Shown one piece after another: positions 7,023-12,151 of a stretch of DNA of 36,200 nucleotides. How positions within the stretch are numbered: position 1 is the first letter of the stretch; each line of letters opens with the position of its first letter. The DNA is from Actinomycetota bacterium (GTDB lineage: Bacteria; Actinomycetota; Actinomycetes; Nanopelagicales; Nanopelagicaceae): NCBI GenBank assembly GCA_947489605.1, contig CANLEG010000007.1, positions 1 through 36,200 on the forward strand, in the 5' to 3' direction. Below the pieces are notes generated by a model. It was not told where the DNA came from. It saw only the letters and a list, made by a program, of their open reading frames with translations, and ran no database searches. The position numbers and the translations under genes were made by a program.

Positions 7023-8146
7023 GAAAAGTATTGGCTTCGATTTTTGTATTAGTGCTTCTTTTATTAGGTGCACCAATTGCTAACGCAGAAGGCGTTGCAA
7101 TTACAATTTCTGAGCCATCTCATCGACAAATTGATGGGGTTTTTATCGATGATGAACTCACCACTTTGCTTTCTTACGAGGGACGCCTGGGCCAATTAGT
7201 TTTCAACCCGGCTCGCGGGAGTAGAAACTGGTTTATTGATCCTCAACTAATTGAAGAAGTAACTGCGATGACTTCTGATTATGTGCTAATCGACGGTGAA
7301 AAAGGGGTTGGCGGTACGGTTGCAAAAAATTGGTTAAATCAACTTGCTGCAATAACTCGGGGCGATCAAATAAGTGCTCTGCCCTTTGGTTCACCTTCTG
7401 GTTATTGGATTTCAAAACTATCGCCAGATAAATCAGAGTTTTACCTTAGTTTCGGCGCCAAGAGGTTAACTGCGCTCTTGAAGCGACAGGTTAATCAGAT
7501 GCCAAGTTATCCCAACAGTATTAATCAAAAGTTAGATAATTCCACTATAAATGCCTATAAAGAAGCGCAACGAGTTTTAGGGATCAATTCTAGTTTTATG
7601 ACGCAAGAAGAAATTGAAGTGTTTCAAGGTCAAAGCGCTTCAGTATTACATCCAGAGTTAAAAGCAAGTACCCGCACAGCATTGGCCTTGGATTTGTTTT
7701 CATCCGCACTCGTAATTACCGAAAAAATAAGACTCGCGCCGGGCAGGTTCACTGTCACAACAACTAAGCAAAATTTACCAATTACCTTGGTTAATGATTT
7801 CACAAATCCTGCGAAAATCTTTTTGAGAGTTGAAACGATAAATGGAAAAGTTATTGTAGGAAGAGTTCCAGATCAAGTTGTCAGCGGAAAATCAAAAATC
7901 CAAGTAATGATCCCTGTTGAGGTTATTACTTCTGGTAAAAGTACTCTTGTTGTTAAGATTTATTCAGAGAAGCGTAAGTTGCTTGGTAATGAAGTGTTTT
8001 ATCCGGTAACACTAAAAGTTATTAGCCCTGTTGCAACTTGGATAACTACTGGTGGAGCTATTGTTCTATTCCTGTCAGCGCTAGTTCAGAGCTTCAGAAG
8101 GATCAGAAAGACTAGAAAGAAAAGTGAGGTAGTTGTAAATGGCTAA
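7019..8146 (+). CDS. Secreted, C-terminally anchored membrane protein in the DUF6049 position
   Basis: A 375-residue protein with an N-terminal signal peptide (about 1-23, ending ANA-E). It has a long extracytoplasmic region, one transmembrane helix near 337-357 and a basic cytoplasmic tail (RRIRKTRKKSE). It occupies the place of mycobacterial Rv3909, a large DUF6049-type protein always found before murJ. The C-terminal part before the helix has the beta-rich look of that family (TTTKQNLPITLVNDF). It is only about half the length usual there, so the N-terminal portion seems reduced. The start overlaps the Nudix stop by 4 bases and the end overlaps murJ by 8 bases, giving tight coupling to lipid II flippase expression. 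No catalytic motif was recognised. A role in envelope assembly is inferred from context. Confidence 0.65.
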   Translation: MRKVLASIFVLVLLLLGAPIANAEGVAITISEPSHRQIDGVFIDDELTTLLSYEGRLGQLVFNPARGSRNWFIDPQLIEEVTAMTSDYVLIDGEKGVGGTVAKNWLNQLAAITRGDQISALPFGSPSGYWISKLSPDKSEFYLSFGAKRLTALLKRQVNQMPSYPNSINQKLDNSTINAYKEAQRVLGINSSFMTQEEIEVFQGQSASVLHPELKASTRTALALDLFSSALVITEKIRLAPGRFTVTTTKQNLPITLVNDFTNPAKIFLRVETINGKVIVGRVPDQVVSGKSKIQVMIPVEVITSGKSTLVVKIYSEKRKLLGNEVFYPVTLKVISPVATWITTGGAIVLFLSALVQSFRRIRKTRKKSEVVVNG

Positions 8147-9737
8147 CCACTCGCTTTTAAAGTCTTCGACAATCATGGCTGTTGGCACGATAGTTTCGCG
8201 CATAACCGGATTAGCACGTGGTCTGCTTTTGGTGGCAGTTCTTGGAACAACCTTGCTAGGCGATACCTTCAACGTTGCAAACACAATGCCAAATATCTTG
8301 TACAACTTAATAATTGGTGGTGCGTTAACTGCAGTCTTTGTCCCGCAAATAGTTCGGGCAACAAATGACCAAGATGGTGGAAGCGCCTTTATCTCACGGC
8401 TGGTAACAGCCACTTTTGTTTTCTTAGCTGGGCTTGTTCTAGTAGCAATTCTTTTAGCACCGGTATTGGTCCGAATTTTTGCGACAAGTTACATCGGGCG
8501 GCCGGAATTTGAAGTAACAACTTTATTTATGCGCTACTGCTTACCGCAAATACTTTTCATGGGCCTATTTGCGCTACTTGGCCAAGTCGCAAATGCAAAA
8601 GGCAAATTCGGCCCCATGATGTGGGCACCGGTTTTAAATAACTTAATTGCTATTGCAGTTTTTGGTTGGTTTTTAAAGTATTCAACTCAACCTACTGTTA
8701 CAACGATTCCTAAGTCGGAAATCATCTGGATTAGTTTGGGTTGCACAGTTGGTTATATGGCACAGGCGTTGATTTTAATTCCTTCGATTTCGAAGACAAA
8801 TATCAGAATTCGTCCAAGGTTTGATTGGCGAGATTCAGAACTGCGTAAGTCTTTACACCTAGCCACATGGACTCTGTTATTTGCTGCTATCTCCCAGGTT
8901 AGTTATTTAGTCACCGTTAATTTATCTACTGGAGCAGCGGTTAAATCTTTAAACAATGGAATTGAAACTGGCGTTGGTTTTACTCCGTTTAGCAATGCGC
9001 TTCTTATTTATATGTTGCCCCATTCAATTATTACTATCTCGGTAGTTACTGCTCTACTTCCTGCTCTCTCAAAACTTGCTCATGAGAAGAAGTCTTTGTT
9101 AATTCATGATCAACTTGTTAGTGCAATGCGATTGGTAGGCCTAGTTACAGTTCCTAGTTCTATTGCATTCTTATTCTTTGGTCCGTTAATGACCGAGACT
9201 CTCTTCTTTGGTATTTCGTTAGCTGATTCGAATTATTTGGGATATACCTTGAGTGCGCTGGCCCTTGGCCTGGCACCGATGAGCGTTAATTTGATTGCTC
9301 TTCGCGGCTTGAATTCATTTGAAAATGTGAAATTACAAGTTTTAAGTAATGCGATTATGAATATCGTTGCAGTAATAGTTTCAATAATTGTTGCTTTTAC
9401 TCTTCCGCCAGAATGGGTAACTGTTGGATTGGCGGGATCGTTAGCACTTAGTTATTACTTTGGAGCTTGGAGCACTATTCGATTGCTTCGTCGATATGAA
9501 ATATCAATCGCTATTTCTGAAGTCTTTGGTTTTTATCTTAAATTGACCGCTCTTGCGCTCCTGGTTTCGGTTCCTATTTGGTTCTTTCGCGATCTAATTC
9601 CAGGCGGGAATATGGTGCGCCTCTTTGTCGTTCTAGCAGTGTGTGGAGTTGGTTATCTTGTGCTCTGCAAGATTGCCCGTGTAAGTGAGATAACTAGTGC
9701 CTTTCAAGTTCTAGCCAGACGTAAAAAGATAGGGTAG
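8139..9737 (+). CDS. murJ: Lipid II flippase MurJ
   Basis: Flips undecaprenyl-linked lipid II to the outer face of the membrane. At 532 residues with about fourteen hydrophobic segments it matches the MviN/MurJ fold. Supporting features are the N-terminal SSTIMAVGTIVSRITGLARG and the family-typical ANTMPNILYNLIIGGALTAVF region. GEGG-like repeats are absent, as expected. Mycobacterial MviN (Rv3910) carries an extra C-terminal pseudokinase domain that binds FhaA. That region is missing here and the protein stops after the last helix and a short basic tail. A GTGAGG stretch about 10 nt before the ATG can act as ribosome-binding site. The gene overlaps the preceding one by 8 bases and is followed after 4 bases by trxB; the sigM pair found between them in mycobacteria is absent. 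Confidence 0.93.
   Translation: MANHSLLKSSTIMAVGTIVSRITGLARGLLLVAVLGTTLLGDTFNVANTMPNILYNLIIGGALTAVFVPQIVRATNDQDGGSAFISRLVTATFVFLAGLVLVAILLAPVLVRIFATSYIGRPEFEVTTLFMRYCLPQILFMGLFALLGQVANAKGKFGPMMWAPVLNNLIAIAVFGWFLKYSTQPTVTTIPKSEIIWISLGCTVGYMAQALILIPSISKTNIRIRPRFDWRDSELRKSLHLATWTLLFAAISQVSYLVTVNLSTGAAVKSLNNGIETGVGFTPFSNALLIYMLPHSIITISVVTALLPALSKLAHEKKSLLIHDQLVSAMRLVGLVTVPSSIAFLFFGPLMTETLFFGISLADSNYLGYTLSALALGLAPMSVNLIALRGLNSFENVKLQVLSNAIMNIVAVIVSIIVAFTLPPEWVTVGLAGSLALSYYFGAWSTIRLLRRYEISIAISEVFGFYLKLTALALLVSVPIWFFRDLIPGGNMVRLFVVLAVCGVGYLVLCKIARVSEITSAFQVLARRKKIG
9730..9735 (+). promoter_or_regulatory. Candidate -10 box for a leaderless trxB transcript
   Basis: TAGGGT lies 6 nt before the trxB ATG and overlaps the murJ stop. 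The GGGT could also serve as a weak Shine-Dalgarno, so the two readings compete. Confidence 0.35.
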
Positions 9738-9741
9738 CCAG

Positions 9742-10671
9742 ATGAGCGAAATACATGAAGTTGTAATTGTTGGTTCGGGCCCGGCTGGTTATACCGCAGC
9801 CATTTATGCGGCGCGTGCGCAACTTTCACCAATACTTTATGAAGGCTCGGTTACTGCTGGCGGCGCTTTGATGAATACAACTGAAGTAGAAAATTTTCCT
9901 GGCTTCGTGGATGGCGTCATGGGACCAGATCTTATGGACTCGATGCGCAAACAATCCGAAAGATTCGGAACGAAATTAGTTACTGATGACATAGTTTCCA
10001 TGGAATTAGGTGGCGATATTAAAGTTCTTAAAGATGGATCCGGAAATACTTTGCAGGCTAAATCTGTAATTCTTGCAACTGGTTCGGCTTATAAAGAAAT
10101 TGGATTGGTAAACGAGAAGCGGTTATCCGGCCGAGGTGTTTCTTGGTGTGCCACTTGCGACGGGTTCTTCTTTAGAGAGAAAGTTATTGCTGTTGTTGGT
10201 GGCGGCGATTCTGCAATGGAAGAGGCTAACTTCCTAACAAAATTTGCAAGTAAAGTTTATGTAATTCATCGTCGAGATTCGCTACGCGCATCGAAAATTA
10301 TGGTTGAGCGCGCACATGCAAATCCAAAGATTGAATTTATTTGGAATACTGAAGTTATAGATGTTCTTGGTGCGGATAAAGTCTCTGGGTTAAAGCTTCG
10401 CAATTTACTCACTAACGAAGAGAGTGAAAGAGATTTCGATGGTCTCTTTGTTGCCATTGGCCACCTACCTAGAAGTGAACTGCTCGTTGGCCAAATCGAT
10501 TTAGATGGCGAAGGTTATGTAAAGGTCGAAAGCGGATCTACTCGTACCAATCAAAAAGGTGTCTTTGCTTGTGGGGATCTAGTCGATCACACCTACCGTC
10601 AGGCGATTACCGCCGCTGGATCTGGTTGTGAAGCAGCGCTAGATGCGGAGCGCTTTCTTTCCGGACATTAA
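9742..10671 (+). CDS. trxB: Thioredoxin-disulfide reductase
   Basis: A flavoprotein that passes electrons from NADPH to thioredoxin in the cytoplasm. The 309 residues match the low-molecular-weight bacterial enzyme. The FAD motif GSGPAG is at 11-16, the redox pair CATC at 136-139, the NADP motif GGGDSAME at 153-160, and the C-terminal FAD motif CGDLVD is present near residue 277. All key residues are intact. trxA follows after 57 bases, the trxB-trxA pairing typical of actinobacteria (Rv3913-Rv3914). A TAGGGT box 6 nt before the ATG suggests it may also be transcribed separately from murJ, which would fit a disulfide-stress response. No binding site for a specific regulator was recognised. 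Confidence 0.97.
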   Translation: MSEIHEVVIVGSGPAGYTAAIYAARAQLSPILYEGSVTAGGALMNTTEVENFPGFVDGVMGPDLMDSMRKQSERFGTKLVTDDIVSMELGGDIKVLKDGSGNTLQAKSVILATGSAYKEIGLVNEKRLSGRGVSWCATCDGFFFREKVIAVVGGGDSAMEEANFLTKFASKVYVIHRRDSLRASKIMVERAHANPKIEFIWNTEVIDVLGADKVSGLKLRNLLTNEESERDFDGLFVAIGHLPRSELLVGQIDLDGEGYVKVESGSTRTNQKGVFACGDLVDHTYRQAITAAGSGCEAALDAERFLSGH

Positions 10672-10728: not shown

Positions 10729-11052
10729 ATGAGTGCAGCGCAACCAGTAACAACCGCTACTTTTGATGAAGTAGTTTTAAAGAGTTCAACACCAGTTCTT
10801 GTAGATTTTTGGGCAGAGTGGTGTGGTCCATGCCGCGCTGTTGGCCCGATTCTCGATGAGATCGCTACTGAATATGCTGGAAAAATTAAAGTTGTTAAGT
10901 TGAACACCGATGAAGAATCAGCGATTGCAATTAAGTATGGAATCACTTCGATTCCTACCTTAAATGTTTACGTTAATGGCGAAGTTGTAAAAACAGTTAT
11001 TGGTGCAAAGCCAAAGCCAGCACTTCTTAAAGAACTAGCAGCGTTTATTTAA
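10729..11052 (+). CDS. trxA: Thioredoxin
   Basis: A cytoplasmic protein-disulfide reductant. Its 107 residues carry the active site WCGPC at 31-35, the preceding DFWAE, and the cis-proline loop SIPTLNVY near residue 74. It is recycled by the adjacent TrxB. A strong purine-rich ribosome-binding site (AAGAGG) stands about 6 nt before the ATG at 10729. The 57-bp gap after trxB contains TAGATAAT at 10694-10701, which could be a -10 box, but no -35 is evident. It ends 4 bases before the CwlM-like gene, so the two are likely co-transcribed. Confidence 0.97.
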   Translation: MSAAQPVTTATFDEVVLKSSTPVLVDFWAEWCGPCRAVGPILDEIATEYAGKIKVVKLNTDEESAIAIKYGITSIPTLNVYVNGEVVKTVIGAKPKPALLKELAAFI

Positions 11053-11056
11053 ATTC

Positions 11057-12151
11057 ATGTCTCCAACTGGTGAGGAGACCAATGTAATTTCGTTGGTCAC
11101 AAATACTTTAACCAGACTTGGGTTTTTAAAAACCGCATCAACTAATTTTGGTGCGGTTGAAGAAGATGGATTACGTGCATTCCAACAAGAACGTGGCCTG
11201 ATTGTTTCAGGAGAAATTGATGAGCCAACAATTCGAGCAATTGATGAAGCGCGTTGGAAACTAGGCGATCGCATCTTGTCTTTCGTTCCAGGAAAAGCAC
11301 TTCGCGGTGATGACGTTGCTGCGCTGCAATCGCGGTTAGTTGAAATGGGTTTTGATTGTGGTCGAGTTGATGCGGTGTTTGGCATACGGACCGAAGCGGC
11401 AGTTAAAGAGTTTCAAAAATCTGTTGGTGTGAAAGTTGATGGCGTATGTGGTCCCGCAACAATCATGTCGCTGATGAGGTTACTAAAAACAGTTTCTGGT
11501 GGTGCTCCAACACTTCTTAGAGATAACGCAAATCGTGCGGTTCGCGGGCCAGCCCTGGCAAATAAAATTATTGTTTTGGACCCAAGCTCGCTTCCAGAAG
11601 ATCAAGAAGTTACTTTTGATATTGCGCAACGACTTGAAGGTCGATTAATTGCTCTTGGGGTGACAGTTTTTATCTCGGGGAGCAAAGCAAAAAATCCAAG
11701 TGAAAGTGATCGGATAAAATTAGCCAATGAATCAGGCGCTGATTTAGTTATCTCGTTCCACACAGATAATTACAAAAATGAGTTAGCGCACGGTCTGGCA
11801 ACTTATTACTATGGCAATGAATTGCATGGTGTGCATTCCGTTGTTGGTGAAAGGTTTGCCGCACTTGTCCAGCGAGAAGTAACAGCGCGCACCGATCTAC
11901 TAAATTGTCGCACCCATGCTAAATCTTGGGATTTGTTGCGCCTAACAAAGGCGCCAGCGGTACGAATTGATTTGGGATATTTATCAAATGCCGGCGATGT
12001 TAAACGGCTATCTGATGTGGCTTTTCGCGAGACGTTGGTTGAATCAATAATGGTCGCTATTCAACGGCTTTATCTATCTGCCGAAAATGATGCAAAAACT
12101 GGCGCCTTAAAGATTTCGGACCTGCGGAGGGCTGGAATTCGTAAGGATTAA
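11057..12151 (+). CDS. cwlM: CwlM-like amidase-family protein, probably catalytically inactive
   Basis: The 364-residue protein has two peptidoglycan-binding-1 repeats (about 8-65 and 80-143) followed by an Amidase_3 domain (about 168-345). It has no signal peptide or membrane helix, so it should stay in the cytoplasm. In mycobacteria CwlM (Rv3915), from the same locus, is a cytoplasmic regulator of MurA rather than a secreted hydrolase. The canonical zinc loop DPGHGG is here reduced to DPSS at 175-178, with no His and a shortened loop before Glu184. His235 (SFHTD) is kept, and the usual catalytic Glu near the end is Asp305 (RIDLGYLSN). I infer loss of amidase activity. There is no Shine-Dalgarno and only a 4-base gap after trxA. 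Location beside murJ fits control of precursor supply. Confidence 0.85.
   Translation: MSPTGEETNVISLVTNTLTRLGFLKTASTNFGAVEEDGLRAFQQERGLIVSGEIDEPTIRAIDEARWKLGDRILSFVPGKALRGDDVAALQSRLVEMGFDCGRVDAVFGIRTEAAVKEFQKSVGVKVDGVCGPATIMSLMRLLKTVSGGAPTLLRDNANRAVRGPALANKIIVLDPSSLPEDQEVTFDIAQRLEGRLIALGVTVFISGSKAKNPSESDRIKLANESGADLVISFHTDNYKNELAHGLATYYYGNELHGVHSVVGERFAALVQREVTARTDLLNCRTHAKSWDLLRLTKAPAVRIDLGYLSNAGDVKRLSDVAFRETLVESIMVAIQRLYLSAENDAKTGALKISDLRRAGIRKD

Follow-up and report, generated by a model that had tools for sequence, protein, structure and literature searches.

RESULTS

An open reading frame at positions 11057 to 12151 on the forward strand of the window (the whole stretch of 36,200 nucleotides analyzed here) starts with ATG and encodes a zinc-less Amidase_3 protein of 364 amino acids. 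It follows three genes of the same strand: murJ (8139 to 9737; 532 amino acids, with neither the cytoplasmic linker nor the pseudokinase extension), trxB for thioredoxin reductase (9742 to 10671), and trxA for thioredoxin (10729 to 11052), which ends 5 bases upstream. An aminotransferase gene comes next, and downstream of it parB, parA, and gidB lie on the opposite strand. A trxB/trxA neighbor near parAB is what is expected of cwlM, and the gene order presumably agrees with that of the mycobacterial cwlM neighborhood. The thioredoxin neighbor is conserved: its motif directly precedes cwlM at all 80 testable loci of the family (40 more have too little upstream DNA), at 76 of 77 testable named loci (3 were too short), and at 42 of the 47 that could be tested in the rest of the class (38 were too short). 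Identity of the window protein to the CwlMs in sampled alignments ranges from 39 to 93%. Because of this conserved neighbor, the gene order, and the identity, we conclude that, by sequence, the reading frame is the ortholog of mycobacterial CwlM in a Nanopelagicaceae (acI) genome.

The named relatives that carry the protein are Candidatus Nanopelagicaceae (freshwater acI actinobacteria), including Ca. Planktophila versatilis. Several records (L247, L248, L275, L282, L296, and others) are titled Bifidobacterium breve or Streptomyces griseus, names that look wrong. These records are MAG contigs, and their CwlMs are 59 to 93% identical to that of the window, as in Nanopelagicaceae records.

The window protein has the domain order of CwlM, two peptidoglycan-binding repeats and then one Amidase_3 domain. 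The first repeat occupies about residues 9 to 62 (11081 to 11242; the limits are approximate), with a Pfam PG_binding_2 match at residues 9 to 43 and model helices at 5 to 21, 33 to 45, and 56 to 69. The second lies at residues 83 to 137 (11303 to 11467), as placed by Pfam and by a structure match to the SleB N-terminal domain (6tci). Pfam PG_binding_1 likewise matched two stretches of the protein. Pfam and structure comparison put the Amidase_3-like domain at residues 171 to 340 (11567 to 12076), and alignment delimits a C-terminal tail at residues 341 to 364 (12077 to 12148). The Pfam Amidase_3 match itself covers residues 183 to 336 (E = 1.4e-28) and begins only at profile position 23; hence, the N-terminal zinc loop goes unmatched.

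An AlphaFold2 model built from a 42-row alignment had a mean pLDDT of 75.2 and a pTM of 0.50, with block means of 82 to 91 across most of the amidase domain. Its top Foldseek match was LytH (E = 1.1e-12). VIA-align superposed it on 4rn7 with a Z of 25.2 over 172 residues (rmsd 1.7), and Z values ran from 22.7 to 25.2 for the Amidase_3 enzymes compared (4rn7, CwlD, CwlV, zinc-bound Rv3717/Ami1, AmiA/B/C, and LytH). Given these matches and the missing site residues described below, the model indicates that the Amidase_3 fold is kept and that the metal site is not.

Active Amidase_3 enzymes have His-Glu-His ligands and a catalytic Glu; the window protein has Asp182, His235, and Asp305, and the first His is absent. 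What remains of the zinc loop is D175-P-S-S178 (11579 to 11590), with 10 residues deleted, so that the alignments count 12 residues from D175 to the residue before F187 versus 22 in intact relatives. Asp182 (11600 to 11602) stands at the Glu ligand position, His235 (11759 to 11761) is the retained third ligand position, and Asp305 (11969 to 11971) occupies the catalytic Glu position. The deletion, with no His left in the loop, recurs in 25/25 genus rows, as do Asp182 and His235; Asp305 is found in 24/25. Asp305 cannot serve as the mark of a dead enzyme, as 14 of the 59 CwlMs from other families whose site is otherwise intact also have Asp there. The initial annotation had proposed an alignment check for another His or Glu taking over the zinc site, and we saw no replacement ligand among the conserved residues of CwlM. 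His287, which we assume from the known Amidase_3 pattern to lie in the stretch before the catalytic strand, is invariant in 7 CwlMs, intact ones included, and hence is no substitute. The sequence supports the view that the window CwlM is a pseudo-enzyme, one that would neither bind the catalytic zinc nor cut peptidoglycan.

Could the protein nonetheless be a hydrolase, with Asp182, His235, Asp305, and another residue holding a metal for weak cleavage? The conservation of these three residues within the genus fits such an activity, as does the activity reported for M. tuberculosis CwlM by Deng et al. 2005, as cited in the portion of PMC4946905 that we drew on. Against it, the entire first-ligand loop is gone with no conserved residue seen in place of its His, H235 is missing from 26 of the 120 family rows and from further degenerate CwlMs, and the protein has no export signal. 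Moreover, we know of no cytoplasmic murein. We consider residual hydrolysis very improbable.

No export signal was found by hydropathy or by the limits of the frame. Kyte-Doolittle means over 19 residues reach no more than 0.84 within the first 78, and the frame 5' of the ATG is open for only 6 codons (an open frame of 370 amino acids), with trxA adjoining. A cytoplasmic location is thus supported by the sequence. The initial annotation had described a CwlM-like protein with two peptidoglycan-binding repeats, no export signal, a zinc loop cut to DPSS (175 to 178) without His, and Asp305 at the catalytic Glu position. Each of these descriptions holds: neighborhood, domain order, and identity make the protein an ortholog, Pfam finds both repeats, the short upstream frame and low hydropathy argue against export, and the alignment confirms Asp305 and resolves the loop as the 10-residue deletion.

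Might the gene instead be decaying, or the deletion reflect a sequencing or assembly error? The lineage has streamlined genomes, and the window assembly (852,059 bases) is only 58.55% complete. However, the same deletion occurs throughout the genus rows, and dN/dS against seven relatives of 90 to 93% identity is 0.026 to 0.053, with dS at or near saturation (1.0 to 2.5). In addition, 107 of the 108 family genomes that reach ≥90% completeness with ≤5% contamination carry cwlM (258 of 296 of any quality). These observations refute a pseudogene or artifact, to which we attach a negligible probability, and by these rates cwlM is under strong purifying selection. Constraint on the amidase domain, zinc-less though it is, roughly equals that on the peptidoglycan-binding repeats in close relatives and exceeds it in distant ones. 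We also considered, and rejected, a second, catalytic Amidase_3 protein in the same genome. CwlM was the only Amidase_3 locus in 37/37 family genomes examined, the two places in G004 being pieces of CwlM.

To place the site in context, CwlM was read in 204 distinct rows. The family (f1) supplied 120 of them and 36 further families of the class supplied 84; the window itself (L001/L002), the fragment L136, and identical rows were dropped. The class rows were picked by hand from the listed matches, with each genus represented by one row or a few, and do not form a random sample. The first His is absent in 116 of the 120 family rows; the 4 that have it all belong to genus g6, and their sites are complete. 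Shortened loops occur in 62 family rows, and other family loops are of full length yet lack the His (DPSW, DPSC, DPSG, and DPSF). Since the His is missing even from full-length loops, its loss probably preceded that of the loop, more than once in the family.

Among the 84 rows from other families, the full H-E-H-E/D site is kept in 59. By family, 29 of 36 are wholly intact, 2 are mixed (f38 and f39), and 5 have no intact CwlM (f4, which holds the Mycobacterium-like rows, f26, f29, f34, and f43). On a tree of 154 of the 204 rows, with site and tail columns excluded, the minimum numbers of changes were 9 for the intact state, 7 for loop shortening, 14 for loss of the third His, and 7 for the tail; this was a quick tree and the counts are unrooted. 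Regain of a four-residue site is implausible, and we infer that most of the site changes are losses. With the site intact in 59 of the 84 CwlMs sampled from other families, the sequences suggest that the intact site is ancestral in the class and that its loss is derived and repeated.

These data bear on the proposal in the initial annotation of a pseudo-enzyme kept as a cytoplasmic regulator. Orthology to CwlM, the pseudo-enzyme look, the cytoplasmic location predicted from sequence, and purifying selection all speak for it. The accompanying claim that the degenerate site is strong evidence for an ancestral regulatory role finds no support in that form: the site is intact in most CwlMs sampled from other families, and this state changed at least 9 times on the tree. 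All that the site loss shows is that the Nanopelagicaceae lineage can do without hydrolysis.

In the tail, Thr348 (12098 to 12100) aligns with the PknB site T374 of M. smegmatis and T382 of M. tuberculosis (sites as given in the available part of PMC4946905). The window tail reads KTGALK; its T348-G349 aligns with the mycobacterial site, but neither PTG nor TGT, the strict form of the motif in PMC4946905, occurs in it. Of three mycobacterial tail Thr residues, one remains; the position after Gly349 is Ala350 in the window and Thr in 23/25 genus rows. Of the 120 family rows, 119 have the tail Thr-Gly; only L017, with its aberrant C terminus, does not. At that locus (genome G007), the cwlM tail continues in frame into downstream aminotransferase sequence, through either a fusion or an assembly error. 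Among the 84 rows outside the family, 42 have both site and tail, 17 the site only, 14 the tail only, and 11 neither, a split that rules out joint loss of tail and zinc site.

In mycobacteria, MurA is of an Asp type that is insensitive to fosfomycin. We scored CwlM (E ≤1e-20) and MurA of the window type (E ≤1e-95) in 394 class genomes. CwlM was found in 241 and the MurA in 240: 236 genomes have both, 149 neither, 5 CwlM only, and 4 MurA only (Fisher p ~1e-96, a value that ignores shared ancestry, treats nonindependent genomes as independent, and has no equally patchy control gene beside it). Of the CwlM-only genomes, G254 does carry an Asp-type MurA, and in G053 MurA is split over contig ends. 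Three of the MurA-only genomes (G096, G184, and G194) are 68 to 78% complete, and the fourth (G115) is 98% complete. Within-family contrasts of the pair are clear only in f26, where G270, G327, and G403 have both genes and G062, G081, G099, and G114 neither, and in f33, where G084 and G344 have both and G117 neither.

The active-site residue was read in 79 MurA-like sequences. It is Asp in 71, all from CwlM genomes and including the MurA of the window's own genome (L331), and Cys in 8, seven from CwlM-less genomes and the eighth from a CwlM genome that has it as a second copy. The Asp-type MurAs form one tree group (77 rows, one change), with a long-branch warning on the Cys side. The association is the same for intact and degenerate CwlMs. 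Since it holds whatever the state of the zinc site, this distribution of sequences argues for a class-wide nonhydrolytic role of CwlM. The ancestral argument is better carried by the co-occurrence of CwlM with Asp-type MurA and by the tail Thr than by the dead site. A literature search, mostly outside subscription journals, listed no title or abstract stating that co-occurrence.

Are the other parts of a kinase circuit present? PASTA domains were found in 35/35 relatives of ≥90% completeness and in 58/60 overall. G029, a near-complete relative, has two proteins above the NCBIfam PASTA-kinase cutoff, one of them beside a PP2C phosphatase. At L336:5955-8419, a PP2C phosphatase gene is followed directly by a three-PASTA kinase gene; fha, rodA, and pbpA, which we take to be the neighbors in the mycobacterial operon, do not adjoin it. 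FHA proteins were counted in 37 family genomes (a single one in 33, none in three, and three in one) and two were read; no FhaA-type protein was seen among them. The two that were read, from the window's own genome and G029 (L330:8597-9115 and L333:4875-5318), are GarA/OdhI-like and sit beside merR-like and gcvH genes, and the former scores below the OdhI cutoff.

For mycobacteria, Hunt-Serracin et al. 2025 proposed a charged interface that pairs CwlM Glu178/179 with MurA Arg346/355, and the interface mutants of CwlM had only a modest in vivo effect on peptidoglycan metabolism (PMC12723410, from the part available). Numbering the MurA residues by the spacing given there, we found Arg346 and Arg355 in 29/33 and 32/33 of other Asp-type MurAs, respectively, and in only 7/37 and 8/37 of family MurAs (L331, L337 to L364, and others). 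The MurA of the window's own genome has His and Thr at these positions. On the CwlM side, the window reads RDNAN versus REEE in the Mycobacterium-like rows, Asn-Ala replacing Glu-Glu. By sequence, then, the proposed interface is eroded on both sides in the family. We asked whether Arg erosion and zinc-site loss coevolve. They do not track exactly: Arg355 is kept in some genera without the zinc-site His (g9, g146, and three of four g4 MurAs), and we make no claim that they coevolve. Separately, L132 (G254, family f43) encodes a very divergent CwlM with a degenerate site, and the MurA there also lacks Arg346 and Arg355.

The eroded contact raises the possibility that CwlM is a cytoplasmic sensor or scaffold whose repeats and dead pocket bind muropeptides, UDP-MurNAc-pentapeptide, or lipid II and which signals to MurJ or other partners rather than to MurA. 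Both repeats and the amidase fold are retained, murJ lies in the same gene run as cwlM, and in M. tuberculosis MurJ has the nonphosphorylated form of CwlM as a binding partner (Turapov et al. 2018, PMC6180346, in the portion consulted). However, the cytoplasmic linker, the CwlM-binding part of mycobacterial MurJ, is missing from the 532-residue MurJ, the co-occurrence is with a type of MurA, and in the more distant of the genus comparisons the repeats are more variable than the amidase domain and tail. We therefore find this explanation unlikely.

DISCUSSION

We think it probable that the window protein is a cytoplasmic, nonhydrolytic CwlM ortholog that acts as a kinase-driven activator of MurA. 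Orthology, the lost zinc loop, the absent signal peptide, purifying selection, and the conserved Thr348 are its footing in the sequence. In a growing cell, a PASTA-type Ser/Thr kinase would phosphorylate Thr348; phospho-CwlM would then dock on the Asp-type MurA and raise what is otherwise a low activity, whereby the first committed step in making peptidoglycan would follow the kinase. The amidase fold may serve as a binding module or scaffold. Since both sides of the modeled interface are eroded in Nanopelagicaceae, the contact with MurA is probably unlike the charged one modeled for M. tuberculosis. We favor this route from kinase through phospho-CwlM to MurA as the one whose parts are present, even though the proposed contact does not carry over.

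A broader proposal is more tentative, and we judge it less likely than not. CwlM may be a dedicated noncatalytic partner of one ancient Asp-type MurA lineage across the Actinomycetia, each being retained or lost with the other regardless of the state of the zinc site. The Nanopelagicaceae would have reduced this circuit to PASTA kinase, CwlM, and MurA and would do without FhaA, the cytoplasmic extension of MurJ, and the charged interface, so that another surface would contact MurA, possibly one freed or made by the loop deletion.

Much of the regulator idea is already published. In the parts of Boutte et al. 2016 (PMC4946905) available to us, mycobacterial CwlM is cytoplasmic, its key zinc residues are not conserved, and complementation succeeds with an allele that lacks all four zinc residues. 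Phospho-CwlM raises MurA activity about 30-fold, the actinobacterial homologs examined (97 chosen) all lack signal peptides, and the phospho-motif is retained in most clades regardless of the zinc residues (PMC4946905). A degenerate site, a nonhydrolytic role, and cytoplasmic ancestry had thus been reported there. The portions of the published accounts that we compared do not describe site erosion to the extent found in Nanopelagicaceae, and CwlM did not appear in literature on Nanopelagicales or acI among the matches listed.

What this lineage adds is a natural series within one family, from an intact site (g6) through His loss to loop removal, with selection still strong. The series parts regulation from hydrolysis more cleanly than do the partly degenerate mycobacterial CwlMs. 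Through the tie to Asp-type MurA, what was found in mycobacteria becomes a rule that can be tested across the class. Loss of the interface in Nanopelagicaceae offers a direct test of the mycobacterial interface model. CwlM is essential in mycobacteria, so it is useful to know its working surface.

We conclude that the window CwlM is a lineage-specific variant of a known protein. It resembles Mycobacterium CwlM (Rv3915/MSMEG_6935) in its two peptidoglycan-binding repeats and Amidase_3 domain, lack of a signal peptide, Thr-Gly tail, degenerate zinc site, Asp at the catalytic position, and, presumably, trx/par gene neighborhood. In the Mycobacterium-like rows (f4, genus g14) the loop, DPGRGG, has its full length, Arg stands in for each of the two His residues, and the Glu ligand is kept. 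In the window protein, by contrast, the loop is deleted, Glu has become Asp, the third His is kept, only one of three tail Thr residues remains, and the acidic MurA-contact residues are gone. With the active Amidase_3 enzymes (CwlV, Rv3717/Ami1, AmiA/B/C, and LytH) it shares the fold, but it has neither their zinc-loop His nor an export signal. The intact CwlMs of other Actinomycetia and of genus g6 match it in domain order and tail, yet they keep H-E-H-E/D and could still be catalytic.
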